NCBI GenBank assembly: GCA_945897825.1
Contig: CAMDGX010000034.1
Location: 1 to 42,560 of the forward strand
Direction of reading: 5' to 3'
Length of the DNA stretch: 42,560 nt
Origin: Asaia bogorensis
GTDB taxonomy: Bacteria > Pseudomonadota > Alphaproteobacteria > Acetobacterales > Acetobacteraceae
In this document: positions 17,151 to 40,973 of the stretch, piece by piece
Position numbering within the stretch: the first letter of the stretch is position 1
Layout: each line of letters opens with the position of its first letter
Program-made: the position numbers and the translations under genes
Notes under the pieces: generated by a model
Told to the model about the DNA's origin: nothing
The model's input: the letters and a program-made list of their open reading frames with translations, nothing else
The model's database searches: none

Positions 17151-17286
17151 AAAGGAAGCACTTCTTTTTGTGAACAAAAAGAAGCAAAAAAACTTCATCC
17201 ATTTGCGCCGTGCTCAACCAATCAGTCGCGGCGCAAATGGAGAAAAGTTTTTTGGTTCTTTTTTTCAAAAAAGAACCGCTTGCTTC
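17151..17286. repeat. Triple-hairpin intergenic element, copy 1 (bidirectional terminator-like)
   Basis: Three structures lie in a row. Hairpin K has arms CTTCTTTTTGT (17161-17171) and ACAAAAAGAAG (17174-17184). The central stem is CCATTTGCGCCG (17199-17210) with CGGCGCAAATGG (17229-17240), extended by an outer CAAAAAAACTT/AAGTTTTTTG pairing. Hairpin G is GGTTCTTTTTT (17254-17264) with AAAAAAGAACC (17267-17277). The central stem is followed by T-tracts on both strands, so it can act as an intrinsic terminator in both directions. It lies exactly between the convergent epoxide hydrolase and LLM genes. The orientation is K-centre-G on +. Confidence 0.9.
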
Positions 17287-18195
17287 CTAGCCAAACACCG
17301 AGAACATTTCCTCCATCGCCACCAACTGGTTCCCCTTCGCCGAGGACGGCACCAGAACCACCGTCCGCACCCCCGCCGCCTGCCAGGCCTCCACCTTCTC
17401 CCGCACCTGCGAGGCCGTCCCGAACAGCGTCACATCCGCCAGCCACCGATCGGTCAGCATCCGCGGCACATCCTCTCGACGCCCCTCGTCGATCGCCTTC
17501 TCGATATCGAGCATCTCCTGCTCGTATCCGGCCTCCTTCCAGTAGTTCCGATAGTTCGGCAGGAACGCATACGACGTCAGCGTCCGCCGGTTCACCGCCT
17601 TCGCCGCCTCCAGATCGTCGCTGATGCAGGTCGGGATCATGTCCGCGACCATGAACCCGGGATCATCCCGCTTCCCTGCCGGCAACGCCGCCAAGGAAGC
17701 CCCCATGTGGCTCAAACAGGCATTGGCGAAGATCACCCCCTGGCTGATCTCCCCCGCCAGCGCCACCATCCGCTTGCGCATCGCCGCCAGCACCACCGGC
17801 GCCAGCGTCCCCACCCCCTCCTGCGCCAGGTAGCGTTCCACGAACCCCCGCGTGTCGCCCAGCGGCTTGCCCGGCGTCACCCCCATCCGCACATGGCTCG
17901 GCCCATGCGCGATGCCGATCCCGAGCGAGAACCGCCCGCCCGACACCTCATGCATGAACGCCGACGAAGCCGCGAAATCGCTCACCGTCCGCGCATAGAT
18001 CGGCGCGATCGCCGTGCAGAACGGAATGGTGGAGGTGTTCCACGCCAAGGCCTCGCACAAGGACATGTTGGCGCCGAGGCTCGGGCAGAACAGTCCGGCA
18101 TAGCCGCGCCGCTCGATCTCCTGCGCCAGTTCGATCATCCGCCGCCGCCGTCCTGGAACGGCCACGAGCGCGACAGCAGGCTTGGTCTGGGCCAC
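17287..18195 (-). CDS. LLM class flavin-dependent oxidoreductase
   Basis: A 302-residue protein of the bacterial luciferase-like monooxygenase family (TIM barrel using FMN or F420). It begins MAQTKPAVALVAVPGRRRRM. It carries the family motif VSGGRFSLGIGIAHGPSH around residues 85-102 and a C-terminal helix region with FGTASQVREKVEAWQAAGV, typical of LLM enzymes. The TAG stop directly abuts repeat element 1. The gene is transcribed divergently from the promoter region at 18317. Substrate unknown. A second, unrelated LLM gene lies at 33211. Confidence 0.9.
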   Translation of the reverse strand: MAQTKPAVALVAVPGRRRRMIELAQEIERRGYAGLFCPSLGANMSLCEALAWNTSTIPFCTAIAPIYARTVSDFAASSAFMHEVSGGRFSLGIGIAHGPSHVRMGVTPGKPLGDTRGFVERYLAQEGVGTLAPVVLAAMRKRMVALAGEISQGVIFANACLSHMGASLAALPAGKRDDPGFMVADMIPTCISDDLEAAKAVNRRTLTSYAFLPNYRNYWKEAGYEQEMLDIEKAIDEGRREDVPRMLTDRWLADVTLFGTASQVREKVEAWQAAGVRTVVLVPSSAKGNQLVAMEEMFSVFG

Positions 18196-18316
18196 GGCGA
18201 ATCCTCCGGCATTTTCGACAGCCTATCCGCCCTCGAAGCCCAGCGGGAGAGGGCAGGGGGGTAGGCGGCCCGCGTCCGTGGCAGGGCGATGATCTTCGAG
18301 GTGCAGAAAAAAATCC

Positions 18317-18345
18317 TTGCACTCCCATCGACAGTTATATATATT
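18317..18345 (+). promoter_or_regulatory. Sigma70-type promoter candidate upstream of the btpA locus
   Basis: TTGCAC (18317-18322), a 17-bp spacer, then TATATT (18340-18345) lie in a conspicuously AT-rich patch (about 18308-18360) within GC-rich DNA. The predicted transcript would start around 18352, right at the ATG at 18353, so that frame would be leaderless. The alternative is that this is the distant promoter of btpA with a leader of about 600 nt. Confidence 0.5.
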
Positions 18346-18352
18346 CATCTCA

Positions 18353-18961
18353 ATGTCATTGAAAGCGCCCTCCCTGGCCGAGCAGATCGGCTCCATCCGC
18401 ACCGCCACCCAGGCGGAGGACACGTGCGGCTGGCTGCCTGCGCCCCTGGTCGCCCTGATCATGGCCTGCCTCGCGCGCCTGCTCGGCCGGCTGGAGCAGA
18501 TGGTCCTGCTCTGGCAGGCCGGCCAACTGCCCGCACCGGTGCAACACCCCCGCTCCCCCCGCATCGCCATGGGCCACGCGTCGGATCCCCGCCCCGAATC
18601 CGCCCGCCGCCCGGCCGATGCCCAATGGCGCCCCCGTGGCCGCTCAGCCACCCACGCCCCCTCTGCCAACGCCGCGCCGGCCGAAACCCCGGCCGCCCAC
18701 GCGTCGCAGCCGCGCGCCGCGCCCGCGCAATTGGCGCCCCCAGGCCCGGCCATCGCCGGGATCTTCTCCCCCCACCGCCCACGCCCTGCGCGCGACCCGC
18801 CATCGGCCGGCCCGACCGAGCCTGAAACACCCCCGCATGGGGCAGCAAACGCATGCCTAGAATATTACGATAAAGAAACAAATAATCCGATCCCCCGCTT
18901 GCCGCCAAACCCGGGGCAGGGCAAACCTGCGGGCACCAGCGCATCCACCGGAGCCCGCCCC
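18353..18961 (+). CDS. Unrecognised Pro/Arg/Ala-rich open frame fused in frame ahead of btpA
   Basis: From ATG 18353 the frame reads MSLKAPSLAEQIGSIRTATQ and continues with an amphipathic/hydrophobic stretch (APLVALIMACLARLLGRLEQ). Low-complexity Pro/Arg/Ala sequence fills the next 120 residues or so. There is no stop before the btpA ATG at 18962, so a 469-codon fused frame is formally open. The first 60 codons look protein-like and the rest does not. It may be a small gene whose stop was lost by frameshift: in the +1 frame a TAG lies at 18858, just before an AT-rich patch. No function can be given. Confidence 0.3.
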
Positions 18962-19762
18962 ATGCCCTTCGATTTCCTCCCGCACCGCCGCAAGGCGATC
19001 ATCGGCATGGTCCATCTCGGCGCGCTCCCCGGCACCCCGCTGCACGACACCCAGGGCGGCATGGCCAAGCTTGTCGACGGTGCCCTGGCCGATATCGAGG
19101 CGCTCCAGGCCGGCGGCATCGACGCCATCATGTTCGGCAACGAGAACGACCGCCCGTATTCGCTGAAGGCCCCCGCCGCCAGCATCGCTGCCATGTCCGC
19201 CATCGTCGCCGCCGTGAAACCCGAGATCCGCGTCCCCTTCGGCGTCAACTACCTCTGGGACCCCACCGCCAGCATCTGCATCGCCGCGGCCACCGGCGCG
19301 CAGTTCGTCCGCGAGATCTTCACCGGCGTCTATGCGTCGGACATGGGCATCTGGGCGCCCGACTGCGAAACCGCGCTACGCACCCGCCGCGACCTCGGCG
19401 TGCCCCACCTCAAGCTGCTGTTCAACATCAACGCCGAGTTCGCCACCCCGCTCGACACCCGCCCGATCGGCCTGCGCGCCAAGTCCGCCGTGTTCTCCTC
19501 GCTGGCCGACGCCATCATGGTCTCCGGCCCCCTCACCGGCCAACCCGTCGACCAGTCCGAACTCCGCCAGGTCCGCGAGGCCGTCACCGACGTCCCGGTC
19601 TTCGTCAACACCGGCGTCAACCTCGACAACGTCGCCGCCATGCTCTCCCTCGCCGACGGCGCCGTCGTCGGCACCCACTTCAAGCACCAGGGCATCACCT
19701 GGAACGCCGTCGACGCCGGCCGCGTGATGCGCTTCATGGACAAAGTGAACACGCTCCGTTGA
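18962..19762 (+). CDS. btpA: BtpA/SgcQ family protein
   Basis: A 266-residue TIM-barrel-like protein of the BtpA/SgcQ family, named after a photosystem I biogenesis factor but in heterotrophs usually found with sugar-metabolism genes. Motifs include IIGMVHLGALPGTPLHD near the N-terminus, GGIDAIMFGNENDRP, PFGVNYLWD and the C-terminal phosphate-binding-like VNTGVNLDN and GAVVGTHFK. ATG 18962 is chosen because family homology begins there. The frame is open upstream to 18317. A kinase gene starts 16 bp downstream, which suggests a role in metabolism of a phosphorylated sugar (inference). Confidence 0.88.
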   Translation: MPFDFLPHRRKAIIGMVHLGALPGTPLHDTQGGMAKLVDGALADIEALQAGGIDAIMFGNENDRPYSLKAPAASIAAMSAIVAAVKPEIRVPFGVNYLWDPTASICIAAATGAQFVREIFTGVYASDMGIWAPDCETALRTRRDLGVPHLKLLFNINAEFATPLDTRPIGLRAKSAVFSSLADAIMVSGPLTGQPVDQSELRQVREAVTDVPVFVNTGVNLDNVAAMLSLADGAVVGTHFKHQGITWNAVDAGRVMRFMDKVNTLR

Positions 19763-19778
19763 CCCTGGGGCGCTGACC

Positions 19779-21260
19779 ATGTTCACCATCGGCCTCGACA
19801 TCGGCACCACCTCGACCATCGGCATCCTCATCGAGCTGCCGAACAGGGTCGCCGCCCTCGCCTCCCGCCCCGCCACCCTCCACGCGCCCCACCCCGGCTG
19901 GGCCGAAGCCGACCCCGCCCAATGGTGGCAGAACGTCTGCAAGATCTGCCACGAACTCCTCGCCGCCGAACCCCGCGCCCGCACCGCCCTGGCAAGCATC
20001 GGCGTCGGCGGCATGCTCCCCGCCCTCGTCCTGCTCGATGCCGCCGGCCACCCGCTGCGCCCCAGCATCCAACAGTCGGACGCCCGCTGCGACGCCGAGC
20101 TCACCGCCCTCCTGGCCACCACCGACCAGGCCGCCTTCCTCGCCACCGCCGGAAACGGCCTCAACCAGCAGGTCGCCGCCCCCAAGCTGCACTGGCTGGC
20201 CAAACACGAACCCGACGCAATCGCCCAGGCCCGAACCCTCACCGGCTCCTACGACTACATCTCGTACCGCCTCACCGGCCAGCGCACCGCCGAACGAAAC
20301 TGGGCCCTCGAAGCCGGTTTCCTCGACCTCCAAACCGCCGAACCCGCCCCCGCCCTCATCGCCCTGGCCGGCATCGCCCCCGACCTCCTGCCCCCCATCC
20401 GCGAAGGCCACACGATCCTCGGCGAAGTCACGCCTGAAGCCGCTACCGCCACGGGCCTCCCCCCCGGCACCAAGGTCATCGCCGGCAGCGCCGACCACAT
20501 CGCCAGCGCCTACGCCGCCGGCCTCACCGAGGAAGGCGATGCGCTCCTGAAATTCGGCGGCAGCGCCGACATCCTGATCGCCAGCCGCGAGGCAAAACCC
20601 GACGACCGCCTCTACCTCGACTACCACTCCATCCCCGGCCTCTACGTCCCGAACGGCTGCATGGCCAGCGGCGGCTCCATGCTCAACTGGCTCGCCACAA
20701 TCCTCGCCCCCGGCGAAGCCAAGCCCCACCCCCGCCTCGACCAACTCGCCGCAACCATCCCAGCCGGCAGCGACGGCCTCGCCGTCCTGCCTTATCCCCT
20801 CGGCGAGAAATCCCCGCTCCACGACCCGCTCGCCCGCGCCACCTTCACCGGCCTGTCCCTCAACCACACCCCGGGCCACCTCTGGCGCGCCACCCTCGAA
20901 TCCATCGGCTACGCGCTGCGCCACCACGCCGAAGTCTTCCGCGAAATCGGCCACCCCATCCACCGCCTGCGCGCCAGCGACGGCGGCTCGAAAAGCCTGG
21001 TCTGGATGCAGATCATCGCCGACATCTTCCAGATGCCCGTCCGCGTCCTGACCGACCACCCCGGCTCCTGCCTGGGCGCCGCCTGGCTCGCCGCCATCGG
21101 CACCGGCGCCAGCACCAACTGGCACGGCGTCACCAACTTCATCGGCGAGGGCAGGGTGCTGAACCCGAACCCCGAAACCTCCGCCGCCCACGACGAAGGC
21201 TATGCGCGCTACCGCAGCCTCTACGGTTCACTGAAGCCGTGGTTCGCAGGAAAGAGGTAA
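19779..21260 (+). CDS. FGGY family carbohydrate kinase (xylulokinase-like)
   Basis: A 493-residue two-domain sugar kinase. The N-terminal phosphate loop is GLDIGTTSTIGILIE, and PGWAEADPAQWW is the usual FGGY segment. The C-terminal domain has GSADHIASAYAAGL, FGGSADI and RASDGGSKSLVWMQIIAD, the ATP-site signature. It phosphorylates a ketose or polyol, and xylulose is a guess from overall resemblance. It is co-directional with btpA (16-bp gap). The TAA stop sits in the conserved edge of repeat element 2. Confidence 0.9.
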   Translation: MFTIGLDIGTTSTIGILIELPNRVAALASRPATLHAPHPGWAEADPAQWWQNVCKICHELLAAEPRARTALASIGVGGMLPALVLLDAAGHPLRPSIQQSDARCDAELTALLATTDQAAFLATAGNGLNQQVAAPKLHWLAKHEPDAIAQARTLTGSYDYISYRLTGQRTAERNWALEAGFLDLQTAEPAPALIALAGIAPDLLPPIREGHTILGEVTPEAATATGLPPGTKVIAGSADHIASAYAAGLTEEGDALLKFGGSADILIASREAKPDDRLYLDYHSIPGLYVPNGCMASGGSMLNWLATILAPGEAKPHPRLDQLAATIPAGSDGLAVLPYPLGEKSPLHDPLARATFTGLSLNHTPGHLWRATLESIGYALRHHAEVFREIGHPIHRLRASDGGSKSLVWMQIIADIFQMPVRVLTDHPGSCLGAAWLAAIGTGASTNWHGVTNFIGEGRVLNPNPETSAAHDEGYARYRSLYGSLKPWFAGKR

Positions 21261-21387
21261 GAGCCTTCTTTTTGTGAACAAAAAGAAGCAAAAAAACTTC
21301 ATCCATTTGCACCGTGTTCAACCGGTCAAACACGGTGCAAATGGTTAGAAAGTTTTTTGGTTCTTTTTTTCAAAAAAGAACCGCTTC
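21261..21387. repeat. Triple-hairpin intergenic element, copy 2 (best-preserved central stem)
   Basis: Hairpin K spans 21265-21288 and is identical to the one in copy 1. The central stem is CCATTTGCACCGTGTT (21303-21318) with AACACGGTGCAAATGG (21329-21344), a perfect 16 bp with a 10-nt loop. Hairpin G spans 21359-21382, identical to copy 1. The G-C pair of copy 1 (GCGCCG/CGGCGC) is replaced here by A-T (GCACCG/CGGTGC), a compensated change. It lies between the convergent kinase and amidase genes. The orientation is K-centre-G on +. Confidence 0.92.
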
Positions 21388-22776
21388 CTACCCTACGACA
21401 GGCGCAACATTCCCCGAGATCCACCGCGCAATCGCCGTCATCCGCGCGTCCTCGTTCTGCTGCCCCATCACCTGCACCCCCACCGGCATCCCGCCCACCG
21501 CCATCAACGGCATCGTCACCGCCGGCGCGAACAGCATCGAGCTGGGCGCGTTGAACACGAAGTCCCCGGTCGGCCGCGGATGCAGCGGCTGGCCGGGAAC
21601 GTCGCCCGACCAAGGCGTCGCCGGCCCCGGGCAGGCCAGCGTGATCACCGCATCGGCCAGCGGTGCGGCCGCCTTGTGGACCAGCTGCGCGCTGTCCCGT
21701 GCCAGCAGGGCCGCACGGTAATCGTCCGGCGACATCGCCTCGGCGCGGCGCAGCGCGTTCTGCGCCCGCTCGCTCACCTTGCCCGGATTGGCATCGACCA
21801 GCGGCCGTTGGTACCAGCGATTCTCCCAGGCGGTGATGCTGCCGCAGACCGACCGCCCATTGGCCACCGACCGCTCCAGCGCCTCGATGAACCCATGGTC
21901 ACCCCGCCGCAGCAGCCCGACTCCCGCCGACCGCAACTGCTCCAGCAACGTCTCGAACGCCGCCTTGCTCGCTGCATCCAGATCCGGCCAACCTTCGGTC
22001 TCCAGCACGATCAGCCGCCCCGGCTTAACCGCCTCGGGCGGCGAGTCGGGGCCGATCAGCCCGAGGCACCCGCGATCGCCGCCGGCCCGTTTGGTGATCT
22101 CGATCGCCACCTGCCACATGTCCTCGATCGATCCGGCATGCGGCCCATGCGTGCTCATCGAGGTCGCCTGCCGCTCGCCGCGGTTGATGCCGCCCTGGGT
22201 CGGCTTCAGCGCGAAGTTGCCGCAATACGCTGCGGGCCGGATGATCGAACCGCCCACCTGCGTGCCGATCGCCGCCGGCATCATCCGCGCGCCAACCGCC
22301 GCCGCCGAACCGGAGGAGGAGCCGCCGGGGGTGCGCGAGGGATCGAACGGGTTCGTGGTCGGCCCCGGATGCGCGCCGCCGATCTCGGCGGTCACCGTCT
22401 TGCCGAAGATCACCGCGCCGGCCAGGCGCAGCGCCCAGACGGCGGCATTGTCGCGCTTCGGGAAGTTGCCGCGGAATGCCTCGCAGCCCATCTCGGTGGG
22501 GTGGTCCACGGTCTCCAGCAGGTCCTTGATGCCCACCGGCATCCCGTCGATCGCCGAAAGCGGCTTGCCTTCCGCCCAGCGCTTCGTGCTGGCATCCGCC
22601 GCCGCGCGGGCCGACTCGAGGTTCAGCGAGGCCATCGCCTTCACCACGGGCTCGCGCTCCTGCACCGTGGCGATGCAGCGCTCCAGGTAGGCGCGCGGCG
22701 TGTCGCTGCCGTCGCGGAAGCGGGGCACGGCATCGTGGAAGGTCAGGGCGCGGAAGCTGCGGGGATCGTAGGTCAT
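21388..22776 (-). CDS. Amidase (amidase signature family)
   Basis: A 462-residue hydrolase of the Ser-cisSer-Lys amidase family. The catalytic Lys84 is in GMPVGIKDLLE. The Gly/Ser-rich segment TPGGSSSGSAAAVGA carries the cis-Ser (about 154-155), and Ser177 in GTQVGGSIIRPAAYCG is the nucleophile. The start ATG 22776 (MTYDPRSFRALTF) has GGAG about 9 nt upstream. The frame is open further upstream to 23190, but that part overlaps the terminator and the DUF2852 gene. There is no signal peptide. TAG is the stop, flush with repeat element 2. The substrate amide is unknown. Confidence 0.91.
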   Translation of the reverse strand: MTYDPRSFRALTFHDAVPRFRDGSDTPRAYLERCIATVQEREPVVKAMASLNLESARAAADASTKRWAEGKPLSAIDGMPVGIKDLLETVDHPTEMGCEAFRGNFPKRDNAAVWALRLAGAVIFGKTVTAEIGGAHPGPTTNPFDPSRTPGGSSSGSAAAVGARMMPAAIGTQVGGSIIRPAAYCGNFALKPTQGGINRGERQATSMSTHGPHAGSIEDMWQVAIEITKRAGGDRGCLGLIGPDSPPEAVKPGRLIVLETEGWPDLDAASKAAFETLLEQLRSAGVGLLRRGDHGFIEALERSVANGRSVCGSITAWENRWYQRPLVDANPGKVSERAQNALRRAEAMSPDDYRAALLARDSAQLVHKAAAPLADAVITLACPGPATPWSGDVPGQPLHPRPTGDFVFNAPSSMLFAPAVTMPLMAVGGMPVGVQVMGQQNEDARMTAIARWISGNVAPVVG

Positions 22777-22856
22777 GGGTTCGGGCTCCAGGGCGACACT
22801 CTGGCCCCATCCTGGCAAGTCGCGGTCCGCATGGCTATCGGCCTCGCCTGACATTC

Positions 22857-22892
22857 GACAACGAAAAGCCCGCCGGTGGAAACCGGCGGGCT
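22857..22892 (-). terminator. Intrinsic terminator of the DUF2852 gene
   Basis: On the minus strand AGCCCGCCGGT and ACCGGCGGGCT (22867-22877 and 22882-22892 on +) form a perfect 11-bp stem with a TTCC loop. TTTTCGTTGT follows. It lies 24 nt past the DUF2852 stop and upstream of the amidase gene, separating the two transcripts. Confidence 0.8.
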
Positions 22893-22916
22893 CGGGTCGT
22901 TCGCGATGGCGCTGCG

Positions 22917-23351
22917 TCAGTTGGCTTGGTTGCCGTCCGGCACGATGGTCGGGCGGCGGCGGTCGGCCATGAACTGGTCGAACTCGGCCTTGTCCTTGGC
23001 GCGGCGCAGGCGCTCGAGGTATTCCACGAACTCCTTCTGCTCCTCCTCCAGGCGCCGCAGCGTCTCGGTGCGGTACTCGTCGAAGGCGGCGTTGCCGCTC
23101 GGGGGCGCGGGGGGCTGTTGCTGCTGCCAGCTGTTGCCCCACTTGCCCCAGCAGGACGCGCCCTGCGGTGAGGCCTGGGTGTTGTGCCACTGGCCGGGCG
23201 CCTGGTTCATCCAGCGCCGGCCGATGCGGCCGCTGCCGACGAGGTAGCCGACCAGCGCGATGCCGAGTGGCCAGAAGAAGACAAAGGCGAGGACCGTGGC
23301 GACGATCCAGGCCGGCTTGGGGATGTCGTTCAGGTACGCCGAGAAGGGCAC
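22917..23351 (-). CDS. DUF2852 family membrane protein
   Basis: A 144-residue protein. Residues 12-40 (KPAWIVATVLAFVFFWPLGI and on through GYLVGSG) form a hydrophobic segment near the N-terminus. A Trp/Gln/Pro-rich linker (about 60-85) and a charged, probably coiled-coil C-terminus (FDEYRTETLRRLEEEQKEF onward) follow. This matches the layout of DUF2852 proteins of alphaproteobacteria, whose function is unknown. It is likely an inner-membrane protein with a cytoplasmic tail. A 25-bp palindrome resembling the one at the tetR start lies 28 bp upstream, so TetR control is plausible. A strong terminator follows it. Confidence 0.85.
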   Translation of the reverse strand: MPFSAYLNDIPKPAWIVATVLAFVFFWPLGIALVGYLVGSGRIGRRWMNQAPGQWHNTQASPQGASCWGKWGNSWQQQQPPAPPSGNAAFDEYRTETLRRLEEEQKEFVEYLERLRRAKDKAEFDQFMADRRRPTIVPDGNQAN

Positions 23352-23378
23352 GATGGCCTCCGTGGTGCGGGTGGGTGG

Positions 23379-23403: not shown

Positions 23404-23465
23404 AGGTGGGGCATCCCGGCCCCCAAGTCAAGCAGAATGCGCATCGAAATCGAACATGCGCCGCG

Positions 23466-24148: not shown

Positions 24149-24180
24149 CAATGCGCTTCGGAATGCATCCGCCGTGTGCG

Positions 24181-34278: not shown

Positions 34279-34288
34279 GGGATGCTCC

Positions 34289-35062
34289 TCAGAACAGCGA
34301 ATACCCGCCGTCGATCACGAACGACTCGCCCGTATGATACGCGCTGGCGTCACTCATGATGTAGACCGCAACACCGCCGAAATCCGCCCCGGTCCCCCAG
34401 CGCCGCATCGGAATCCGCGGCATCACGGCGCCGGCAAACTTGTCGTTGCCGATCGACTTGGCCGTCATGTCCGTCTCGATCCAGCCCGGCAGGATCGCAT
34501 TGGCCGTTATGCCATGGCGCGCCGTCTCCACCGCAATGGATTGGAGCATCGAAACCAGCCCGCCCTTGGTCGCCGAATAATGCTCGTTGCGCGCCGCCCC
34601 CTCGATCGCCGCCAGCGACGCCGTCCCTACCAGCCGACCGCCGCCGCCGCGCGCCACCATGTGCCTGGCCGCCGCGCGCAGCGTGAACATCGCCCCGTCG
34701 AGGTTCACCCGCATCACCTTGTTCCAAAGCTCGGTGTCGTACTCATGAAACGGCACCGACCGCCCGGCCCCGATGCCGGCATTGGCGAAGCACCCGTCCA
34801 CGCGCCCCATGGCATCGAGCGTGCGCGCGAACGCCGCATCCACCGCCGCCTCGTCGCCCACATCGCATTCCAGCGCGAGGATCCTGCGCCCGGTTTTCTC
34901 CAGCTCGGCCTTCGCCGCGGCGTTCTTGGCGGGATTGGTCCCCCAGATCGCCACGTCGGCCCCCGCCTCGGCGATCGCCACCGCCATGCCGAGCCCAATG
35001 CCGGAATTCCCGCCGGTGATCAGCGCGACCTTCCCGGTCAGGTCAAAGGGCTTGTAGGCCAT
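34289..35062 (-). CDS. SDR family oxidoreductase
   Basis: A 257-residue classical short-chain dehydrogenase. The NAD(P) motif TGGNSGIGLG lies at about residues 15-24. NAG is in CFANAGIGAG, the catalytic Ser is in VGTASLAA, and Tyr and Lys are in HYSATKGG. LPGWIETDMT and the C-terminal ITGE-type segment YHTGESFVIDGGYSLF complete the fold. The start ATG 35062 (MAYKPFDLTGKVALIT) has GAGGAGA 8 nt upstream. The frame extends to 35149 without support. It is probably co-transcribed with the LLM gene. Substrate unknown. Confidence 0.93.
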   Translation of the reverse strand: MAYKPFDLTGKVALITGGNSGIGLGMAVAIAEAGADVAIWGTNPAKNAAAKAELEKTGRRILALECDVGDEAAVDAAFARTLDAMGRVDGCFANAGIGAGRSVPFHEYDTELWNKVMRVNLDGAMFTLRAAARHMVARGGGGRLVGTASLAAIEGAARNEHYSATKGGLVSMLQSIAVETARHGITANAILPGWIETDMTAKSIGNDKFAGAVMPRIPMRRWGTGADFGGVAVYIMSDASAYHTGESFVIDGGYSLF

Positions 35063-35137
35063 GGCAGCGTCTCCTCGCGTTTCCCTTCGGCCAGCGTGGC
35101 CCGGCCAGGGCGGGGCGGCAAGCCCCGGGCGTGGGAA

Positions 35138-35281
35138 GAAAGGAATCACGTTCTTTTTTGAAAAAAAGAACCAAAAAACTTTCTATCCATTTGCGCCCAC
35201 CTTCATAGGTCCAGCGCAGAGCAAATGGAGAAAAAGTCTTTTTGCTTCTTTTTCTTCAGAAAAAGAAGACTCTTCCTTCCT
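35138..35281. repeat. Triple-hairpin intergenic element, copy 3 (inverted, weaker central stem)
   Basis: Hairpin G has arms GTTCTTTTTT (35150-35159) and AAAAAAGAAC (35162-35171). The central stem is shortened to CCATTTGC (35187-35194) with GCAAATGG (35221-35228), 8 bp, with an outer partly paired CAAAAAACTTT/AAAGTCTTTTTG. Hairpin K is CTTCTTTTTCT (35245-35255) with AGAAAAAGAAG (35258-35268). The order G-centre-K is inverted relative to copies 1 and 2. It is the only copy not between convergent genes: it lies downstream of the 35282 gene and upstream of the SDR start, both on the minus strand. Confidence 0.88.
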
Positions 35282-36013
35282 TCACGCCGCCGGAGCCACG
35301 CTCAACCCCACCACCTTGTGCGCCGCGATGAACCCCGCCACGAGCCCGCTCGCCTTCGCCTCCTCCACGAACTCGCGCAGGAAGGCCTGCCCCGCCATCA
35401 ACGTCTTGCCGCAACCGATCGCCTGCTGCACCGCCATGAACTTCCCGTCCATGATCGTGTGCCCCGGCGCTTTCGGGGCATCCCCGAGCAGCCCTGGCCG
35501 CAGCCCCGCCAGCGCGTCGACGCCGCCCTGGAGGTACATCTCGAACGCCCCGCCCAGCCCGTTCGCCCGCACCAGCGTCGCGTGCTGGATGTTGCGCTCC
35601 AGCCACAAATCATACGCGGCGCGGGCCGACACGCAGATGCGCACGCCGGGCTTGTCCACGTCCGCGATCGTGCGCAGCTTCGAGCCGGGCGGCACCATGT
35701 AGGTCGCCTCGATCTCGCAGTATGCAGCGGTGAACGCGGTCTTTTCCGAACGCAGCGGGTCGGCGCCGATCAGCCCGATATCCCACGCATCCGTCCCCGC
35801 CGCATCGGCCAGCACGCCGGGGTTTGGATACGGCACCTTCACCAGCGGAACGCCCAGACGCCGCGCCACCTCGGCCGCCATGCTCGGCGACACCCCGACG
35901 GGGCCGCCATCCGCGTCCTTGCCGGTCACGAGCAGGAAGTTGCTCATGTTGATCCCCGCCCGCAGCACCCCTGTCGGCGCCAGCTCGGCCCGCGCGGCAG
36001 CAACATCAACCAT
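35282..36013 (-). CDS. Family-3 solute-binding-domain protein lacking a signal peptide
   Basis: A 243-residue protein with the SBP_bac_3 (polar amino acid binding) fold: GVLRAGINMSNFLLVTG, VGVSPSMAAEVARRLGVPL, DIGLIGADPLRSEKTAFTAAY and LRTIADVDKPGVRICVS follow the family order. The start ATG 36013 (MVDVAAARAELAPTGV) has GGGGAGA 8 nt upstream, and there is no hydrophobic signal before it. It is therefore predicted to be cytoplasmic, which is unusual for this fold. No permease or ATPase gene adjoins it. It may sense a small molecule or act as an enzyme such as a cyclohexadienyl-dehydratase-like protein (inference). Its stop abuts repeat element 3. Confidence 0.82.
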   Translation of the reverse strand: MVDVAAARAELAPTGVLRAGINMSNFLLVTGKDADGGPVGVSPSMAAEVARRLGVPLVKVPYPNPGVLADAAGTDAWDIGLIGADPLRSEKTAFTAAYCEIEATYMVPPGSKLRTIADVDKPGVRICVSARAAYDLWLERNIQHATLVRANGLGGAFEMYLQGGVDALAGLRPGLLGDAPKAPGHTIMDGKFMAVQQAIGCGKTLMAGQAFLREFVEEAKASGLVAGFIAAHKVVGLSVAPAA

Positions 36014-36089
36014 GGCATCGTCTCCCCGTCAGTCATCGTTCCATGCCACCATGCCACCGCCGCCAGCATGCCGGAAGGGCAGGGGAACC

Positions 36090-36434
36090 ATGATCGCCGT
36101 CATCTTCGAAGTCCGCCCCGCCGAGGGCCGCACCGAAGCCTATCTCGACCTCGCCGCGAAGCTGCGCGACGACCTCGCGACGATGGACGGCTTCATCAGC
36201 GTCGAGCGCTTCCAGAGCCTCACCGACCCGGGCAAGCTCCTCTCCCTCTCCTTCTGGCGCGATGAGGCGGCCGTCGCCGGCTGGCGCAACCAGGCCCGCC
36301 ACCGCGCCACCCAGTCCGCCGGCCGCGGCGGCGTGTTCGCCGAATACCGCCTGCGCGTCGCCGCCGTGCTGCGCGACTACGGCCTCGACGAGCGCGAGCA
36401 AGCCCCCGCCGACAGCCGCGTGCACCACGCATGA
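36090..36434 (+). CDS. Antibiotic biosynthesis monooxygenase (ABM) domain protein
   Basis: A 114-residue dimeric alpha/beta-barrel protein. The conserved features are IFEVRPAEGRTEAYLDLAAK, MDGFISVERFQS, LLSLSFWRDEAAVAGWRN and HRATQSAGRGG, matching ABM-domain enzymes that oxidise or bind small aromatic or polyketide-like compounds. The start ATG 36090 is preceded by AGGGGAACC and is preferred over the long upstream open frame to 35730, which overlaps the divergent gene. The stop overlaps the MBL start (ATGA). Confidence 0.88.
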   Translation: MIAVIFEVRPAEGRTEAYLDLAAKLRDDLATMDGFISVERFQSLTDPGKLLSLSFWRDEAAVAGWRNQARHRATQSAGRGGVFAEYRLRVAAVLRDYGLDEREQAPADSRVHHA

Positions 36435-37237
36435 CCCCCTACATCTGCACCACCTGCGGCACCCAATACGCCCCGAGTGCCGCGCCCCCGCCGTCCTGCC
36501 CGATCTGTCAGGACGAGCGCCAATATGTCGGCCCCGGCGGCCAGTCCTGGACCACGCTCGACACCCTGCGCCGCACCCACGCCAACATCTGGCGCCTGCG
36601 CGAGCCCGATCTGTTCGACCTCCAGACCACCCCCGGCTTCGCCATCGGCCAGCGCGCCCACCTGCTGCGTACGCCATCGGGCAACATCCTGTGGGACTGC
36701 ATCGCCCTGCTCGACGACGCGACAGTGCAACTCATCCAAGCCCTCGGCGGCCTCTCCGCCATCGCCATCTCGCACCCGCATTTCTACACCACCATGGCCG
36801 AGTGGGCGCGCGCCTTCGCCTGCCCGATCTGGCTCCACGAAGCCGACCGCGCCCACATCCAGCGCCCCGACCCAGCCCTGCGCTTCTGGTCCGGCCCCAC
36901 ACACGCGCTGGCCGACGGCCTCACCCTCATCAACGCCCCCGGCCACTTCGACGGCGCCGCCATGCTCCACTGGCAACAAGGCGCCGAAGGAAGCGGCGTG
37001 CTGCTCGCCGGGGACGTGATCCAGCTCGTGCCCGACGCGAATTCGGTCAGCTTCATGCGCAGCTACCCGAACCTCATCCCGCTCCCCGCCCACGCCATCA
37101 CCGGGATCGAGTCCGCCATCGCCCCCTTCGCCTTCGACCGCCTCTACAACGCCTTCGCCCCGCGCGGCATGATGTCCAACGCCAAGCCTAACATCGCCCG
37201 CTCCGCTGAGCGCTATCGGCGCTGGATAGCCCCGTGA
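36431..37237 (+). CDS. MBL fold metallo-hydrolase with N-terminal Cys4 ribbon
   Basis: A 268-residue protein. The N-terminus has a rubredoxin/zinc-ribbon-like CxxC...CxxC (Cys6, Cys9, Cys23, Cys26). The metallo-beta-lactamase domain follows: the metal motif reads SHPHFYTT (His115, His117), so the usual Asp and His of HxHxDH are replaced by Tyr119 and Thr120. His172 (GHFDGAAM) and Asp195 (LAGD) are kept, and a late His221 is present. Site 2 ligands are thus altered. It is translationally coupled to the ABM gene. Its reaction is unknown. Confidence 0.86.
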   Translation: MTPYICTTCGTQYAPSAAPPPSCPICQDERQYVGPGGQSWTTLDTLRRTHANIWRLREPDLFDLQTTPGFAIGQRAHLLRTPSGNILWDCIALLDDATVQLIQALGGLSAIAISHPHFYTTMAEWARAFACPIWLHEADRAHIQRPDPALRFWSGPTHALADGLTLINAPGHFDGAAMLHWQQGAEGSGVLLAGDVIQLVPDANSVSFMRSYPNLIPLPAHAITGIESAIAPFAFDRLYNAFAPRGMMSNAKPNIARSAERYRRWIAP

Positions 37238-37295
37238 TCGACGACCGCAGCCCCGCCCCCGCGCTCCCAGCGCCGGACCCATGGAGATGCCCGGC

Positions 37296-37874
37296 ATGAA
37301 CGACGAGATCGACCGGCTGTTCGCCCAGGTCCACGCCATCGAGGCGCAGATCGAAGACCAGCTGGACGCGCACCGCGCGCAGTTCCGCTACCGCATGGCG
37401 CAGGGCCGCGCTGAGTTCGAGGCCGAGGCCCGCCGGCTGCATCAAACCCTGCGCGCCGGTCTGCTGCGCTACCTCTGGGAGACGCCCTGGCGCCACCTTC
37501 TCGTCGCGCCGGTGATCTATGCGATGGTGGTGCCGTTCGCGCTGCTGGATGTGAGCCTGACCGTCTACCAGCACATCTGCTTCCGCGCCTGGGGCATCGC
37601 CCGCGTGCCCCGGCGGGACCACATCGTGCTGGACCGCCACCGCCTCGGCTACCTCAACATCATCGAGAAGCTGAACTGCCTCTATTGCAGCTACGCCAAC
37701 GGCCTGTTGGGCTATGCGCGCGAGATCGCCGGGCGCACCGAGCAATACTGGTGCCCGATCCGCCACGCCACCGCCATCCGCGGCCCGCACAGCCGCTACA
37801 AGGCCTTCGTCGACTACGGCGACGCCGAAGGTTACCGCGCCCGGCTCGAGGAACTGCGCGCCAAGCTGCGCTGA
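37296..37874 (+). CDS. Conserved membrane protein with cysteine motifs, function unknown
   Basis: A protein of 192 residues from ATG 37296, which has GGAGA 10 nt upstream. ATG 37281 is an in-frame alternative adding 5 residues. An N-terminal amphipathic/coiled-coil stretch (about 1-60) precedes one or two membrane segments (VAPVIYAMVVPFALLDVSLT). A highly ordered C-terminal part carries HRLGYLNIIEKLNC, CLYCSYANG and EQYWCPIRHA, three cysteines suited to metal or heme binding. The pattern looks strongly conserved, but I cannot name a function. It ends 3 bp from the convergent CoA-transferase stop. Confidence 0.8.
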   Translation: MNDEIDRLFAQVHAIEAQIEDQLDAHRAQFRYRMAQGRAEFEAEARRLHQTLRAGLLRYLWETPWRHLLVAPVIYAMVVPFALLDVSLTVYQHICFRAWGIARVPRRDHIVLDRHRLGYLNIIEKLNCLYCSYANGLLGYAREIAGRTEQYWCPIRHATAIRGPHSRYKAFVDYGDAEGYRARLEELRAKLR

Positions 37875-37877
37875 CCG

Positions 37878-38999
37878 CTAGGCGCCCGACCGCAACGCCT
37901 GGTCCGCCCCCAGCGCCGGCGCCCCGCTTACAACCGGCGGCCGCACCCCGTCGAAGCTCATCGGCAACCCGATCAACGGCAGCGTCATCCCCGGCGGCGG
38001 CTGCAACAACCCCAGCGCAGCCACCTGCGTATCCGTATGCAGCACCCCCATGTCGTTGATCGGCGCGCACGGCACCCCGATCGCCTCGAACCGCTCCTCC
38101 CAGAATGCAGAGGGCTTCCGCGTCATGATCGCCGAGATCAGTCCGATGATCTCCTCCTTGTTGCCCGCCCGCGCCGCGTTGGTGGCATAGCGCGGATCGG
38201 CGGCCCACTCGGGATGCCCCAGCTCGGCCGCCATCTTGGCGAACAGCCGGTCCGTCGCCGCCGCCACCACCAGCTCCCGGTCCGCCGTCGGCAGCGCCTG
38301 GAACACCACCACGCGAGGGTTGCCGCTCCGGTCCCGCTGCGGATGTTTCCCGGATTCGGCAAACGCCGCCCAATGCCCGCTCATCCACCCCATCGCCGTC
38401 TCCAGCAGCGAGGTATCGACGATCCCGCCCGCCCCGGTCCGCTCCCGCCGCAGCAGCGCCGCCAGGATCCCCATCGCCGCCCACATCCCGGTGCCGAGAT
38501 CGAGCACCTGCACCCCGATCCGGCTCGGCGCCCCCGCCGGATCGCCGTTCAGCGCGAACAGCCCGGAAAACGCCTGCACCATCGGCTCGAACCCCGGCGA
38601 CATCCGCCGCGGCCCCACCGCCCCCAGCGCCCACAGCGAGCAATAGACCAGCCGCTTATTGCCCGCGACCATCGCCTCGGCCCCCAGCCCCAGCTTCTCC
38701 AGCGCCCCGGGGCGCAAATTCTGCACCACCACGTCGCTCTGCCCGATCCGTTCCACCAGCCAGGCGAAATCGTCCTCGTTGCGGAAATCCAGCGTCACGC
38801 TGCGCTTGTTCATGTTCATGGCCTGGAATGTGGTGGCCATCCCGCCATGGAACGGCGGCCCCCAGCCGCGCGCATTGTCCCCCTCCGGCCGCTCGACCTT
38901 CAGCACCTCGGCCCCCATCAGCGCCAGGATCTGCCCGGCATAGGGCCCCGCCAAATTCTCCGCGATCTCGACAACCTTCACGCCCTGCAGCGGCAACAT
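37878..38999 (-). CDS. CaiB/BaiF family CoA-transferase
   Basis: A 373-residue family III CoA-transferase that moves CoA between carboxylic acids. The N-terminal motif MLPLQGVKVVEIAENLAGP leads to KVERPEGDNARGWGPPF, the CoA-binding region. LRPGALEKLGLG and the catalytic-Asp segment VLDLGTGMWAAMGILAAL follow. The ATG at 38999 overlaps the stop of the nitronate monooxygenase gene (TGATG), with a GTG one codon upstream as an alternative. The pair is clearly co-translated, pointing to catabolism of an acyl-CoA linked substrate. Confidence 0.92.
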   Translation of the reverse strand: MLPLQGVKVVEIAENLAGPYAGQILALMGAEVLKVERPEGDNARGWGPPFHGGMATTFQAMNMNKRSVTLDFRNEDDFAWLVERIGQSDVVVQNLRPGALEKLGLGAEAMVAGNKRLVYCSLWALGAVGPRRMSPGFEPMVQAFSGLFALNGDPAGAPSRIGVQVLDLGTGMWAAMGILAALLRRERTGAGGIVDTSLLETAMGWMSGHWAAFAESGKHPQRDRSGNPRVVVFQALPTADRELVVAAATDRLFAKMAAELGHPEWAADPRYATNAARAGNKEEIIGLISAIMTRKPSAFWEERFEAIGVPCAPINDMGVLHTDTQVAALGLLQPPPGMTLPLIGLPMSFDGVRPPVVSGAPALGADQALRSGA

Positions 39000-39943
39000 C
39001 ACGACACCAGCCCCGCCACGCGCGCGCCCGCCGCGCGATACTCACGCTCTAGCCGATCCACCAGCTCGGCCACGCCCGGAATGTCGGCGATCACCCCCGC
39101 GCCCTGGCCCGCGCCCCAGATATCCTTCCAGGCCTTCGGCTTCTCCCGCTTGTGCCCGGCGACATAGGTCTTCCCCGCTTCCACCGCCGGCAAATTCGCC
39201 GGATCGAGCCCGGCGGCGATCATGCTCTTGCTCAGGTAGTTGCCATGCACGCCGGAAAAGAAATTCGTATACGTCACATCCTTGCTGCCGCTCTCGACGA
39301 TCATCCGCTTGTAGCCGTCGGCCGCCTGTGCCTCGCGCGTCGCGATGAACCGCGTGCCCATGTAGACCATGTCCGCCCCCATCGCCTGCGCCGCCAGCAC
39401 CGACGCCCCGTCCGAGATCGCCCCGGCCAGCACGATCGTCCCGCCGAAGAACTTCCGAACTTCCGGCAACAACGCGAACGGCGACGTCGCCCCGCCATGC
39501 CCGCCCGCCCCGGCGCACACCAGGATCAGCCCGTCCACCCCCTGCTCCACCGCCTTCTCCGCATGGCGCACGGTGGTGACATCGTGGAACACCAGCCCGC
39601 CATACTCATGCGCCCCCTGCACCACCTCCGAAGGCGGCCGCAGCGAGGTGATGATCAGCGGCACGCGAAACTTCATGCAGGTCGCAAGATCGCCCGAAAG
39701 CCGGTCATTGCTCGCGTGGCAGATCAGGTTCACCCCATACAGCCCATGCGTCCCCTCAAGCCGCCCCTGCAATTCCTCCAGCCACCGGGGGAAATCCTCC
39801 TGCGGCCGTGCATTCAGCGCCGGAAACGTCCCCAGCACCCCCGCCCGGCACTGCGCCTCGACCAAATCCAGCCCCGACACGATGAACATCGGCGAGCCGA
39901 TCACCGGCAGGCGCAGACGGCTGAACTGTTGCGGCAACGGCAT
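38999..39943 (-). CDS. Nitronate monooxygenase family protein
   Basis: A 314-residue FMN-dependent TIM barrel of the nitronate monooxygenase/2-nitropropane dioxygenase family. LRLPVIGSPMFIVSG starts the barrel. The FMN/active-site loop CAGAGGHGGATSPFALLPEV carries the conserved His, and LAGAISDGASVLAAQAMGAD and GTRFIATREAQA bind flavin phosphate. Such proteins oxidise nitronates or act as enoyl reductases. The stop overlaps the CoA-transferase start. It is divergent from the enoyl-CoA hydratase gene, with a 130-bp shared upstream region. Confidence 0.92.
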   Translation of the reverse strand: MPLPQQFSRLRLPVIGSPMFIVSGLDLVEAQCRAGVLGTFPALNARPQEDFPRWLEELQGRLEGTHGLYGVNLICHASNDRLSGDLATCMKFRVPLIITSLRPPSEVVQGAHEYGGLVFHDVTTVRHAEKAVEQGVDGLILVCAGAGGHGGATSPFALLPEVRKFFGGTIVLAGAISDGASVLAAQAMGADMVYMGTRFIATREAQAADGYKRMIVESGSKDVTYTNFFSGVHGNYLSKSMIAAGLDPANLPAVEAGKTYVAGHKREKPKAWKDIWGAGQGAGVIADIPGVAELVDRLEREYRAAGARVAGLVS

Positions 39944-40073
39944 GGCGCGCTCCTCCTCGTTGCCCTCACCGTGGGCAACCCCTCACCGTCCGTCAACGTC
40001 GCCCCATCCCCCCTGTTCATCTTCCCTGAACCCCCGCCCCGCGCCAAACTCCCCCGCAAAGGGAGAACCGCCA

Positions 40074-40847
40074 ATGCACGTCCAAACCACCATCGAAGGC
40101 GCCGTCGCCACCGTCACCCTCAACCGCCCCGAGCGCATGAACGCCCTCACCAAGGAAATGCGCGAGGAGCTGATCGAGGCGTTCCAGTCGCTCCGCTTCA
40201 ACAACGACGTCCGTGCCGTCATCCTCACCGGTGCCGGCGCCAATTTCTGCGCCGGTGCGGACATCGACCGCATGAACGAGGAAGACCTCCGCGCCCGCCG
40301 CGATCGCCTCCAGGGCCTCAGCCAAACCTACATGCGCATCCTCCACGCGCTGGAAAAGCCCGTCATCTGCGCCATGCGCGGCCACGCCGTCGGCATCGGC
40401 ATGTCCCTTGTGCTGGGCTGCGACATCGTGCTCGCCAGCGATACCGCCCGCCTCGGCCAGACCTTCCGCCGCATCGGCTACGCGCCCGACGGCGGCGGCA
40501 TCTGGTTCCTCGCCCGCCGCCTGCCGATGAACATCGCCAAGGAATTCGTCTACACCGGCCGCGTCATCGACGCCGCCGAAGCCCACCGCCTCGGCCTGGT
40601 CAACCACGTCATCCCCGACGCCGAACTGATGGACCGCGCGAACGCCATGGCCGCCGATCTCGCCGAAGGCCCGACCTTCGCCCTCGGACTTTCCAAGAAA
40701 CTCTTCCACGTCGCCTCGGGGCCCAGCCTGGAAGACTACCTGGAATACGAAGCCTTCGTGCAGCCCACACTCGGCATGTCGCATGACCACAAGGAAGGCG
40801 TGGCGGCGTTCAAGGAGAAGCGGAAGCCGAAGTTCAAGGGAAGGTAA
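40074..40847 (+). CDS. Enoyl-CoA hydratase/isomerase family protein (PaaG-like)
   Basis: A 257-residue crotonase-fold enzyme. VTLNRPERMNALTKEM and the oxyanion-hole segments FCAGADIDRM and GHAVGIGMSL are present. At the catalytic loop the sequence reads GQTFRRIGYAPDGGGIWFLAR. The first hydratase Glu is replaced (QTF) and an Asp precedes GGG, as in PaaG-type isomerases, so isomerase activity is more likely than hydration. AAAGGGAGAA precedes ATG 40074. The frame is open upstream but overlaps the divergent gene. TAA stop, flush with repeat element 4. Confidence 0.92.
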   Translation: MHVQTTIEGAVATVTLNRPERMNALTKEMREELIEAFQSLRFNNDVRAVILTGAGANFCAGADIDRMNEEDLRARRDRLQGLSQTYMRILHALEKPVICAMRGHAVGIGMSLVLGCDIVLASDTARLGQTFRRIGYAPDGGGIWFLARRLPMNIAKEFVYTGRVIDAAEAHRLGLVNHVIPDAELMDRANAMAADLAEGPTFALGLSKKLFHVASGPSLEDYLEYEAFVQPTLGMSHDHKEGVAAFKEKRKPKFKGR

Positions 40848-40973
40848 GAACGTTCTTTTTTAAAAAAAGAACCAAAAAACTTTCATCCATTTGCACCGCT
40901 CGTAACCGTTCAGGCTCGGTGCAAATGGATAAAGTCTTTTTGCTTCTTTTTCTTCAGAAAAAGAAGACCCTTC
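40848..40973. repeat. Triple-hairpin intergenic element, copy 4 (inverted)
   Basis: Hairpin G has arms GTTCTTTTTT (40852-40861) and AAAAAAGAAC (40863-40872). The central stem is CCATTTGCACCG (40887-40898) with CGGTGCAAATGG (40917-40928), a perfect 12 bp. Hairpin K (40943-40966) has arms CTTCTTTTTCT and AGAAAAAGAAG, identical to copy 3. It lies between the convergent enoyl-CoA hydratase and Hint-protein genes. The order is G-centre-K, the same as copy 3. Confidence 0.92.

Follow-up and report, generated by a model that had tools for sequence, protein, structure and literature searches.

A spreading gene-end repeat in Asaia bogorensis with the layout of a bidirectional terminator and putative triplex-forming arms

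The window analyzed here, i.e., the whole stretch of 42,560 nt from Asaia bogorensis, contains four copies of one intergenic element. Gene boundaries around the copies were called anew in the follow-up analysis. Copy 1 (17151–17286) lies between the convergent genes 16134–17150 (+) and 17287–18138 (−), copy 2 (21261–21387) between the convergent genes 19779–21260 (+) and 21388–22776 (−), and copy 4 (40848–40973) between the convergent genes 40074–40847 (+) and 40974–42500 (−). Copy 3 (35138–35281) is located in a tandem minus-strand gene pair and abuts the stop codon of gene 35282–35968 (−). The initial annotation had described four copies of one design, three of them between convergent genes and all touching gene 3′ ends; all four were re-found at the same coordinates, and the independent gene calls agree on their neighbors.

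The element is ~135 bp long and has the fixed order G hairpin–core–K hairpin, with the outer flanks AAGNAAGN/CTTNCTTN. This constant orientation, the flanks, the two K haplotypes, and the mirror relation of tail and hairpin described below are additions to the initial annotation. Copies 1 and 2 versus copies 3 and 4 represent one oriented element on opposite strands (inverted pairs I1–I5), the G-core-K orientation reading on the (−) strand in the former (156.9 bits for copy 1 with the covariance model) and on the (+) strand in the latter. Specifically, copy 1 comprises the K1 hairpin CTTCTTTTTGTGAACAAAAAGAAG (17161–17184), a purine tail A7 beside it (17186–17192, (+) strand) that is a candidate T7 third-strand tract on the (−) strand, the central stem CCATTTGC...GCAAATGG (17199–17240), a T6 tract (17248–17253, (+) strand) that is a terminator-type U-tract and may also supply the G hairpin with its third strand, and the G hairpin GTTCTTTTTTTCAAAAAAGAAC itself (17255–17276). 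Copy 2 has its K1 hairpin at 21265–21288, an A7 purine tail at 21290–21296, the central stem at 21303–21344, and, spanning 21353–21381 on the (+) strand, a T6 tract (21353–21358), a linker, and the G hairpin (21360–21381). In copies 3 and 4, the G hairpin (35150–35171 and 40852–40872, respectively) is followed by an A6 purine tail (35173–35178 and 40874–40879), the central stem (35187–35228 and 40887–40928), and a (+)-strand span (35237–35268 and 40935–40966) made up of the putative third-strand tract TCTTTTT (35237–35243 and 40935–40941), a linker G, and the K2 hairpin (35245–35268 and 40943–40966). K1 and K2 are the two K haplotypes among the copies, and the purine arm AGAAAAA of the copy 3 K2 hairpin forms an exact mirror pair with the tract TCTTTTT. 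As first described, each of the four copies has two AT-rich hairpins of 21–24 nt on either side of the central stem and T-tracts after that stem on both strands.

The stem and hairpins covary, with 97.1% of cells paired and 12 pairs changed on both sides, a level reached by 0 of 500 shuffles, and single-strand RNA folds of five stretches gave z-scores from −4.6 to −8.4. The hairpins are better conserved than the core. On both strands, a stable stem is followed at once by a T/U-tract, as in an intrinsic terminator. Each half-unit consists of a hairpin and an adjoining tract that mirrors the hairpin's purine arm, and it also occurs singly, mostly without a preceding terminator stem (mean z of the stem before the U-tract, −0.35 to −1.02 in lone halves versus −2.25 to −2.73 in paired halves). 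Position counts gave a period-4 flank with the consensus AAGNAAG plus 2–3 nt, these counts and the tallies of lone halves wrongly including loci L161–L191 among the unbiased loci; no unpaired GTAG or CGTC tag was seen at the palindrome foot in the same counts. As regards MITE-type features, the element ends are inverted (AAGNAAG/CTTNCTT) with variable N positions, and visual comparison with a small number of empty sites gave no clean target-site duplication. Of the 47 gene ends in the window's genome that have a hairpin, 32 carry the AAGNAAG flank, versus 3 of the 359 that have none; two of these three are visibly elements missed by the search pattern. We considered AAGNAAG as a general gene-end motif, but on these counts it is mostly part of the element. 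The AAGNAAG flank is also common to unrelated repeats in sister genomes.

A pattern for a 32-nt half of the element matched 307 times in the window's genome versus 0 times when reversed, and the covariance model returned no fewer than 150 copies with E < 1e-20; together with the RNA-fold z-scores, these results exclude chance. The further copies in the genome that the initial annotation implied were thus found, and its suggestion of a spreading family is supported. The element is present at some orthologous gene ends and absent from others, and contig L249 carries two identical cores in unrelated flanks, indicating that the element has been copied about. In the family survey, 58 of 200 sampled genomes and 34 of 102 genera matched the 32-nt half, with a maximum of 1,219 matches per genome. 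The half-unit is also present in the genome of Gluconacetobacter liquefaciens DSM 5603. Matches also occurred in two plasmid records (Pseudoroseomonas cervicalis) and one phage record (Microviridae), and single halves occur in viral contigs too. Rfam gave 0 matches above the gathering threshold in the window, copy 1 appearing only below it, and no title or abstract found in the open-licence PMC literature describes the element. A replication-strand bias of orientation was also considered and set aside, as most of the 109 matches in genome G093 show both orientations intermixed along the chromosome when judged by eye.

In the window's genome, the element is found only beside gene ends. Within 442 kb of it, all 38 copies (one row per place from 74 two-strand rows, two being weak partial matches with E of 1e-5 and 2e-4) are intergenic, with 18 in convergent, 20 in tandem, and 0 in divergent gaps, and 37 of the 38 have a stop codon within 15 nt on one side or both. 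The convergent excess (P = 1.7e-8) and the absence from divergent gaps (P = 7e-8) agree with the enrichment at gene 3′ ends, chiefly between convergent genes, expected from the initial annotation. Among 65 halves in this genome, 49 face the end of a gene, the distance from its stop codon to the start of the half being 3–15 nt in 46 cases. The gene-3′-end location typical of intrinsic terminators thus holds in the window's genome and is looser in other genera, where the spacing is ≤15 nt for 16/25 halves in genome G207, 4/8 in G111, and 4/16 in G093. Elsewhere, divergent gaps contain 12 of 210 classified halves of the named loci and 4 of 59 from G207, G111, and G093 together, with three and two more halves, respectively, inside called genes. 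Single bacterial halves in tandem contexts face either way (R/Y, 28/18 at named loci, 8/7 in G207, G111, and G093, 1/0 in G000, and 3/5 at hairpin-search loci); the orientation and context counts omit edge cases (14 named, 8 viral, 4 from G207, G111, and G093, 6 hairpin-search, and 1 Microviridae). A purely RNA 3′-end role would not predict halves that face both ways.

The relationship between tail and hairpin was analyzed in 603 of 685 half-units, i.e., those with a perfect stem, C after the tail, C as the linker, and runs of five or more. The tail is the mirror of the purine arm in 582 of the 603 when A over C is allowed and in 539 strictly, counts that are not independent because the copies are related. 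Where a G is asymmetrically placed (n = 185), 176 tails are mirrors and none is a same-register direct copy. Run lengths shift together (A5/A5, A6/A6, A7/A7, AGAAAA/AAAAGA, AGAAAAA/AAAAAGA, and AGAAAAAA/AAAAAAGA), and both tail tract length and G position track the hairpin in eight arm classes of at least 9 copies each. A-only tails make up 406 of the 603, and some loci were fetched by an exact T6/A6 pattern, which inflates the counts of the AAAAAA class and of the GTTC foot; with that class left out, the mirror rule fits 248 of 267. In a separate test, the hairpin TTCTTTCTTNNAAGAAAGAA, present in 23 of 200 genomes and 14 of 102 genera, was searched without its tail: among 34 such hairpins (24 from the tail-free search), 29 have the tail AAAGAA, which mirrors AAGAAA, and neither AAGAAA nor A6 was scored in any. 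The K1 and K2 halves are distinguished by a C:G/G:C swap in the hairpin, accompanied in the same copies by T versus C at the corresponding third-strand position. For the AC class, 43/45 fit with A over C and 1/45 strictly.

Of the single rules compared on this set of sequences, only the mirror rule (A over C allowed) accounts for every class. Direct-repeat or inverted pairing as the source of the tail is weakened rather than rejected: any one shift between 0 and 4 explains at most 362 of the 603, but two classes fit at a shift of their own (148/154 AG-type at shift 2 and 28/30 AAGAAA at shift 3). Set against the published features of an intrastrand triplex motif (mirror tract, loops of 1–6 nt, and stems of ≥6; PMC4666352), the half-unit would provide 6–8 triads in the main classes and 5 in a minor one, with turns of 2 and 5 nt. 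The initial picture of two simple AT-rich hairpins is incomplete, as hairpin and tract together make up a mirror-repeat, triplex-type module that is also found alone.

We propose, with a probability of roughly 0.58, that the element is a bidirectional terminator that spreads and has arms made of triplex-forming hairpins, both termination and triplex formation being inferred. RNA polymerase arriving from either gene would transcribe the central stem and then the U-tract, where it would stop in the manner of intrinsic termination. The layout of tail and hairpin is that expected of an intrastrand triplex of the pyrimidine motif (U.A-U, C+.G-C; class IV) on the outward-transcribed strand: the distal U-tract and the next hairpin may fold back into a parallel U.A-U/C+.G-C triple helix, in the order 5′-third strand, linker G, 4-bp lower stem, Y arm, 2-nt turn, and R arm-3′. 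Such a triplex could act as a second barrier to read-through polymerase or as a cap guarding the mRNA 3′ end. It would have a competitor in complete elements, since the left A-tail is able to pair with the right U-tract in RNA folds. Most classes would offer only 6–8 triads and C+.G-C requires protonation, which counts against a triplex.

It seems unlikely that the element is an ordinary bidirectional intrinsic terminator repeat. In that case, function would reside entirely in the central stem and T-tracts, the AT hairpins would be remnants or additional U-tracts, and the mirror relation would simply follow from the low complexity of A/T tracts. The strong GC stem followed by T-tracts on both strands, the placement between convergent genes and at gene ends, and the abundance of A-only tails all suit this explanation. 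It accounts poorly for tails that match the hairpin in tract length and G position across eight arm classes, for lone halves with little stem before the U-tract, and for hairpins more conserved than the core; conserved hairpins beyond the T-tracts, the mirror relation, and repeat-family behavior also set the element apart from intrinsic (Rho-independent) terminators. At the level of DNA, a triplex or cruciform (H-DNA-like) could block polymerase or serve as a supercoil sink between convergent genes regardless of the transcript. Mirror repeats suit either strand, single bacterial halves have no orientation preference, and the convergent placement agrees as well, but 6–8 triads are short for H-DNA, and viral single halves lean to the RNA pyrimidine-third-strand orientation (7/9 in tandem contexts, P = 0.18; 8/10 with the Microviridae copy, P = 0.11), a tendency that is not significant. 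We rate this DNA-level role as rather improbable.

Similarly improbable is a REP/REPIN-like non-autonomous repeat, neutral or selfish, that is mobilized by a RAYT or another Y1/HUH enzyme and owes its 3′-end position to purifying selection elsewhere. Like REP/REPIN elements (Di Nocera et al. 2013, PMC3733652), the family consists of close, often oppositely oriented palindromes in many copies, located downstream of genes and in convergent gaps, and its variable core, presence/absence polymorphism, and identical cores in unrelated flanks would be expected of such a repeat. The transposase check covered PF01797 over 200 genomes and 18 fetched stretches around Y1_Tnp matches. Y1_Tnp is commoner in carriers (14/58 versus 10/142, P = 0.0015, uncorrected for kinship), and in one genome (G027) a half lies ~200 nt before a Y1_Tnp match. 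However, neither the window's genome nor G111 and G207 (~1,200 copies each) has a Y1_Tnp match, and only 4 of the 18 stretches hold a half, none with halves on both sides of the gene. With linkage inconsistent and only the kinship-uncorrected association left, we rejected a RAYT/Y1 transposase as the mobilizer; no dedicated RAYT gene flanked by repeats was found in the 200 genomes and 18 stretches. Unlike REP/REPIN elements, the flanks carry no GTAG or CGTC tag, and CGTC repeats are reported to be absent from Acetobacteraceae (PMC3733652). In the window's genome, the 3–15 nt spacing from stop codons on both sides of convergent copies would be tighter than tolerance alone predicts.

For the proposed terminator with triplex-forming arms, one of the closest comparisons is with the intrastrand triplex motifs of bacteria surveyed by Holder et al. 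(2015, PMC4666352), which include PIT elements/BoxC/TM_ECO and the ITxF classes I–IV. The element resembles PIT/TM_ECO in being multi-copy and intergenic and in the way third-strand, Y, and R tracts succeed one another on a single strand, the outward strand having the class IV order (Hoogsteen tract 5′, Y, R) and the opposite strand the class II order; inverted-repeat occurrences of TM_ECO are also reported there. However, TM_ECO is described as G/C-rich, with a purine motif and 9-nt stems, whereas the element is A/T-rich, has mostly 6–8 triads, is linked to stop codons, and forms an inverted pair around a terminator-like stem. The G/C-rich TM_ECO/PIT pattern CCCTCNCCC...GGGNGAGGG...GGGNGAGGG was not seen in the element, whose sequence is unrelated, and its 4-bp lower stem lies within what the ITxF search calls a loop. 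The E. coli PIT/TM_ECO elements showed no terminator activity according to earlier work cited in that survey, which weighs against the favored interpretation.

A bolder reading, doubtful in our view, is a bacterial and phage 3′-end RNA triple helix on hundreds to >1,000 mRNA ends per genome, in which a hairpin with the U-tract before it as third strand would form a U.A-U triplex that stops polymerase or caps the message against 3′ exonucleases; it would be a prokaryotic counterpart of ENE/MALAT1, spreading as a repeat and taken up by phages. ENE/MALAT1-type 3′-end stability elements are known from eukaryotes and their viruses and form a U.A-U triple helix of a handful to ten triples from a U-rich third strand and a U-A stem near the RNA 3′ end. 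The sequence layout here is compatible, but the element is bacterial and has its A-strand inside the hairpin. Uptake-sequence terminators of Neisseria and Pasteurellaceae are inverted pairs of one sequence, with hundreds of copies and many also inside genes, while here 0 of 38 copies are in genes and the unit is not a short word but a composite of 135 bp.

If the favored interpretation is right, triplex-forming sequence would be routine at gene ends in many genomes of one bacterial family, and a repeat family would supply terminators genome-wide. The mirror covariation would then be evolutionary support for triplex formation; the study of the most familiar triplex repeat of bacteria is reported to have found no in vivo signal of a triplex (PMC4666352). 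The natural variants, differing in length and in G and C positions, form a ready series for probing U.A-U/C+.G-C triplex function in cells.

All four copies that the initial annotation had placed in the window (17151–17286, 21261–21387, 35138–35281 and 40848–40973; copies 1–4) were recovered at those positions, with copies 1 and 2 on the strand opposite to copies 3 and 4. Read in one orientation, the element consists of a G hairpin (GTTCTTTTTT-GA-AAAAAAGAAC), CAAAAAACTTT, a central stem with a variable loop, AAAGTYTTTTTG, and a K hairpin (CTTCTTTTT(GT or CT)-TC-(AC or AG)AAAAAGAAG). An alignment of 35 copies revealed that the core loop is free and that the hairpins and tracts are almost invariant. 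The base pairs covary, with 97.1% of cells paired and both-side changes at 12 pairs; none of 500 shuffles equaled the real structure on any of five measures, and slid structures scored below it on all five. An outer motif, AAGNAAGN, stands before the hairpin and can extend into the last codons of the gene through synonymous changes. Specifically, the 40847 gene end reads AAG GGA/GGG AGG TAA where the element is present (the window's genome, G000, and G002) and AAG GGC CGG TAG where it is absent (G001, G003, G004 and G007), with the same protein encoded. This flank (window 17140–17160 and other element ends) has a period of 4, its fourth base being nearly free.

The initial annotation had also proposed that these copies belong to a spreading family. 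In G000 (4.93 Mb, 208 contigs), we found 65 exact cores, and the covariance-model search that it had recommended returned at least 150 matches; a 32-nt G half (≤3 mismatches) gave 307 matches, with 0 for the reversed control. Of 200 genomes drawn from the same family, 58 (34 of 102 genera) contained the G half, with the most matches in G111 (1,219) and G207 (1,141). Among relatives, 17 of 60 genomes matched the model, every one in the same family, and none of 24 genomes from other families of the class did so under the stricter filters used there. Among the matches listed, the named carriers were Acetobacteraceae and Rhodospirillales MAGs, Gluconacetobacter, Roseomonas, Acidiphilium, Pseudoroseomonas and Asaia MAGs, and a few carrier records bore other labels; judging by these names, the window's own family is probably Acetobacteraceae. 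Exact half matches also occurred in MAGs labeled Oscillospiraceae (L089, L145 and L154; G+C 0.51–0.56) and Acidobacteria (bog) (L104, L127, L132 and L135), where mis-binning, mislabeling and spread beyond the family are the alternatives.

The suggestion that the element favors gene 3′ ends was borne out in 442 kb (the window and 20 further 20-kb stretches), in which genes were called with a simple codon model. All 38 model matches were intergenic, 18 of them in convergent, 20 in tandem and 0 in divergent gaps. An element occupied 18 of 23 convergent gaps of ≥100 bp and 0 of 43 divergent gaps (convergent excess, P = 1.7e-8; divergent absence, P = 7e-8), the gap counts including gaps created by the element itself. 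In 37 of 38 copies, one or both sides had a stop codon no more than 15 nt away. Among 65 half-units, 49 faced a gene end, 46 of them starting 3–15 nt from the stop codon, so a convergent gap often barely exceeds the element. Elsewhere this spacing is looser (≤15 nt for 16/25 gene-end halves in G207, 4/8 in G111 and 4/16 in G093), and divergent gaps hold 12 of the 210 classified halves of named loci.

Each half follows a mirror rule, in that the purine tail beside the hairpin is the reversed purine arm of that hairpin. The arm/tail combinations included AAAAAA/AAAAAA (n = 334), AGAAAAA/AAAAAGA (122), ACAAAAA/AAAAAAA (41), AAGAAA/AAAGAA (28), AGAAAA/AAAAGA (17), A7/A7 (15), A5/A5 (12) and AGAAAAAA/AAAAAAGA (9). 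The rule fits 582 of 603 halves if A opposite C is allowed and 539 strictly, and permuting tails within length classes gave at most 438 fits versus 587 of 685 observed. The lower four hairpin pairs fall outside the mirror; they are chiefly GTTC (306) or CTTC (266), with rarer, Watson-Crick-matched feet such as TTTC (8) and CTAC, CTCC and CTGC (1 each). Of the 185 arms whose G is placed asymmetrically, 176 were mirrored, 0 were directly copied in register and 1 had an all-A tail. Shifted direct copies do fit the AG class (148/154 at shift 2) and the AAGAAA class (28/30 at shift 3), but the best single shift accounts for 362 of 603 halves, and no shift accounts for the AC class (0/45). The AAGAAA class was examined again using a query that contained the hairpin but not the tail; this matched 23 of 200 genomes in 14 genera (reversed control, 7 versus 136 in G207 and 0 in the other rows shown). 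Of 34 such hairpins examined, 24 of them from this search, 29 carried AAAGAA and 1 a shorter form, AAAGA; no tail was scored for 4, and AAGAAA or A6 was scored for none. AAAGAA tails span at least nine genera, counted by handle. As copies are related by descent, the counts overstate the independence of this support, and a better guide is how many distinct classes (eight have at least 9 copies) and how many genera are represented.

Mirror symmetry is a requirement of a triple helix. The pyrimidine tract of the outward strand would run parallel to the purine arm and form U.A-U and C+.G-C triads, with K1, one K-hairpin haplotype, placing U over an inverted C:G pair. A single G would make the turn from the third strand into the hairpin; given A-form RNA geometry, one nucleotide spanning four deep-groove base pairs seems plausible. 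What the sequences themselves show is a repeat family with a gene-end position, a covarying stem, T-tracts, the mirror rule, and gain and loss. The best account of it is a spreading, putative bidirectional terminator whose arms would form RNA triplexes and may protect 3′ ends.

Bacteria are already known to have intrastrand triplex repeats, of which the main text of Holder et al. 2015 (PMC4666352) describes four classes; one strand of the half shows the class IV order, the other strand the class II order. TM_ECO, as described there, is G/C-rich, with neither terminator activity nor an in vivo triplex signal reported, whereas our element is rich in A/T, associated with stop codons and part of a terminator-like composite. 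That main text contains no words beginning Acetobacter, Gluconacetobacter or Acidiphilium, and the accompanying database may contain these motifs. REPs (PMC3733652) share layout and position with the element, but neither their tag nor their transposase was found for it. A search of Rfam did not return the element, and no paper describing it was found in the literature searched.

Comparison of orthologous gene ends revealed gain and loss. The 40847/40974 pair holds the element in G000 and G002, lacks it in G001, G003, G004 and G007, and has an unrelated CGCCAAGG repeat in its place in G006 and G008; G005 has no element after the 40974 orthologue. After the 21388 orthologue, the CGCCAAGG repeat occurs in G001, G006 and G008, and neither it nor the element is present in G005. 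The 17287 orthologue is followed by the element in G005, by a variant in G001, by a truncated variant in G004 and by no copy in G002, G006 or G008. Moreover, a contig from the viral collection (L249) carries two elements with unrelated flanks whose cores are identical over 50 nt from both sides. Taken with the gain and loss, this means that copies arrive by copying or swapping; G000 itself shows little sign of very recent copying, with no identical pair among its cores and 0.8 reached in 2 of 1,176 comparisons. Y1 transposases, considered as the copying enzyme, do not explain the element in searches of the genomes and of stretches around matches. Differing repeat families seem to replace one another at the same gene ends.

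In sister genomes (L235, L223, L224, L231 and L232), the same convergent gap holds an unrelated palindrome, ACCGCCAAGGCGCCAAG...CTTGGCGGT, again lying directly after stop codons and, in several instances, flanked by GAAGGAAG; the genes concerned are orthologues of window 19779–21260, 21388–22776, 40074–40847 and 40974–42500. A repeat-like stretch, CACAGAGG..., follows the stop codon of the 18962–19762 orthologues (L235, L227 and L232), with a GAAAGAAAG flank in L235 and a different, purine-rich version in L227; the window's own tandem gene end is without it.

Other genera often carry single halves. The 48 nt leading up to the U-tract of such halves hold hardly any stem (mean z, −0.35 to −1.02, versus −2.25 and −2.73 for complete elements), so the half is an independent module. 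Bacterial single halves in tandem pairs face both ways (40 R versus 30 Y, groups summed). Of the 9 tandem singles that could be classified in viral-collection contigs, 7 are oriented such that the pyrimidine third strand would be in the RNA, a bias not significant alone (P = 0.18, or 0.11 on adding the Microviridae copy). That copy, one perfect half (AAAAGTTTTTTGGTTCTTTTTTTCAAAAAAGAAC) in MG945182 (an ssDNA phage from cattle blood, record unverified; L240:640–820), directly follows a strong GC hairpin and was possibly borrowed from a bacterial host. Tested with ten proteins, four viral-collection contigs encode tail, terminase, capsid or portal proteins. In phage contigs L252 (7995–8026), L253 (2902–2933) and L268, which encode tail sheath, portal or capsid proteins, halves lie between same-strand genes. 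Paired halves normally point inward, but a pair at L275:19618–19700 in G207 has the opposite arrangement, set back to back with the tails outward (hairpin-GCCTTTCTTTTT-hairpin). Elsewhere in the window, 152–5017 holds three tandem, apparently paralogous genes (152–1738, 1896–3425 and 3521–5017) with long direct repeats spaced ~1.6–1.7 kb apart.
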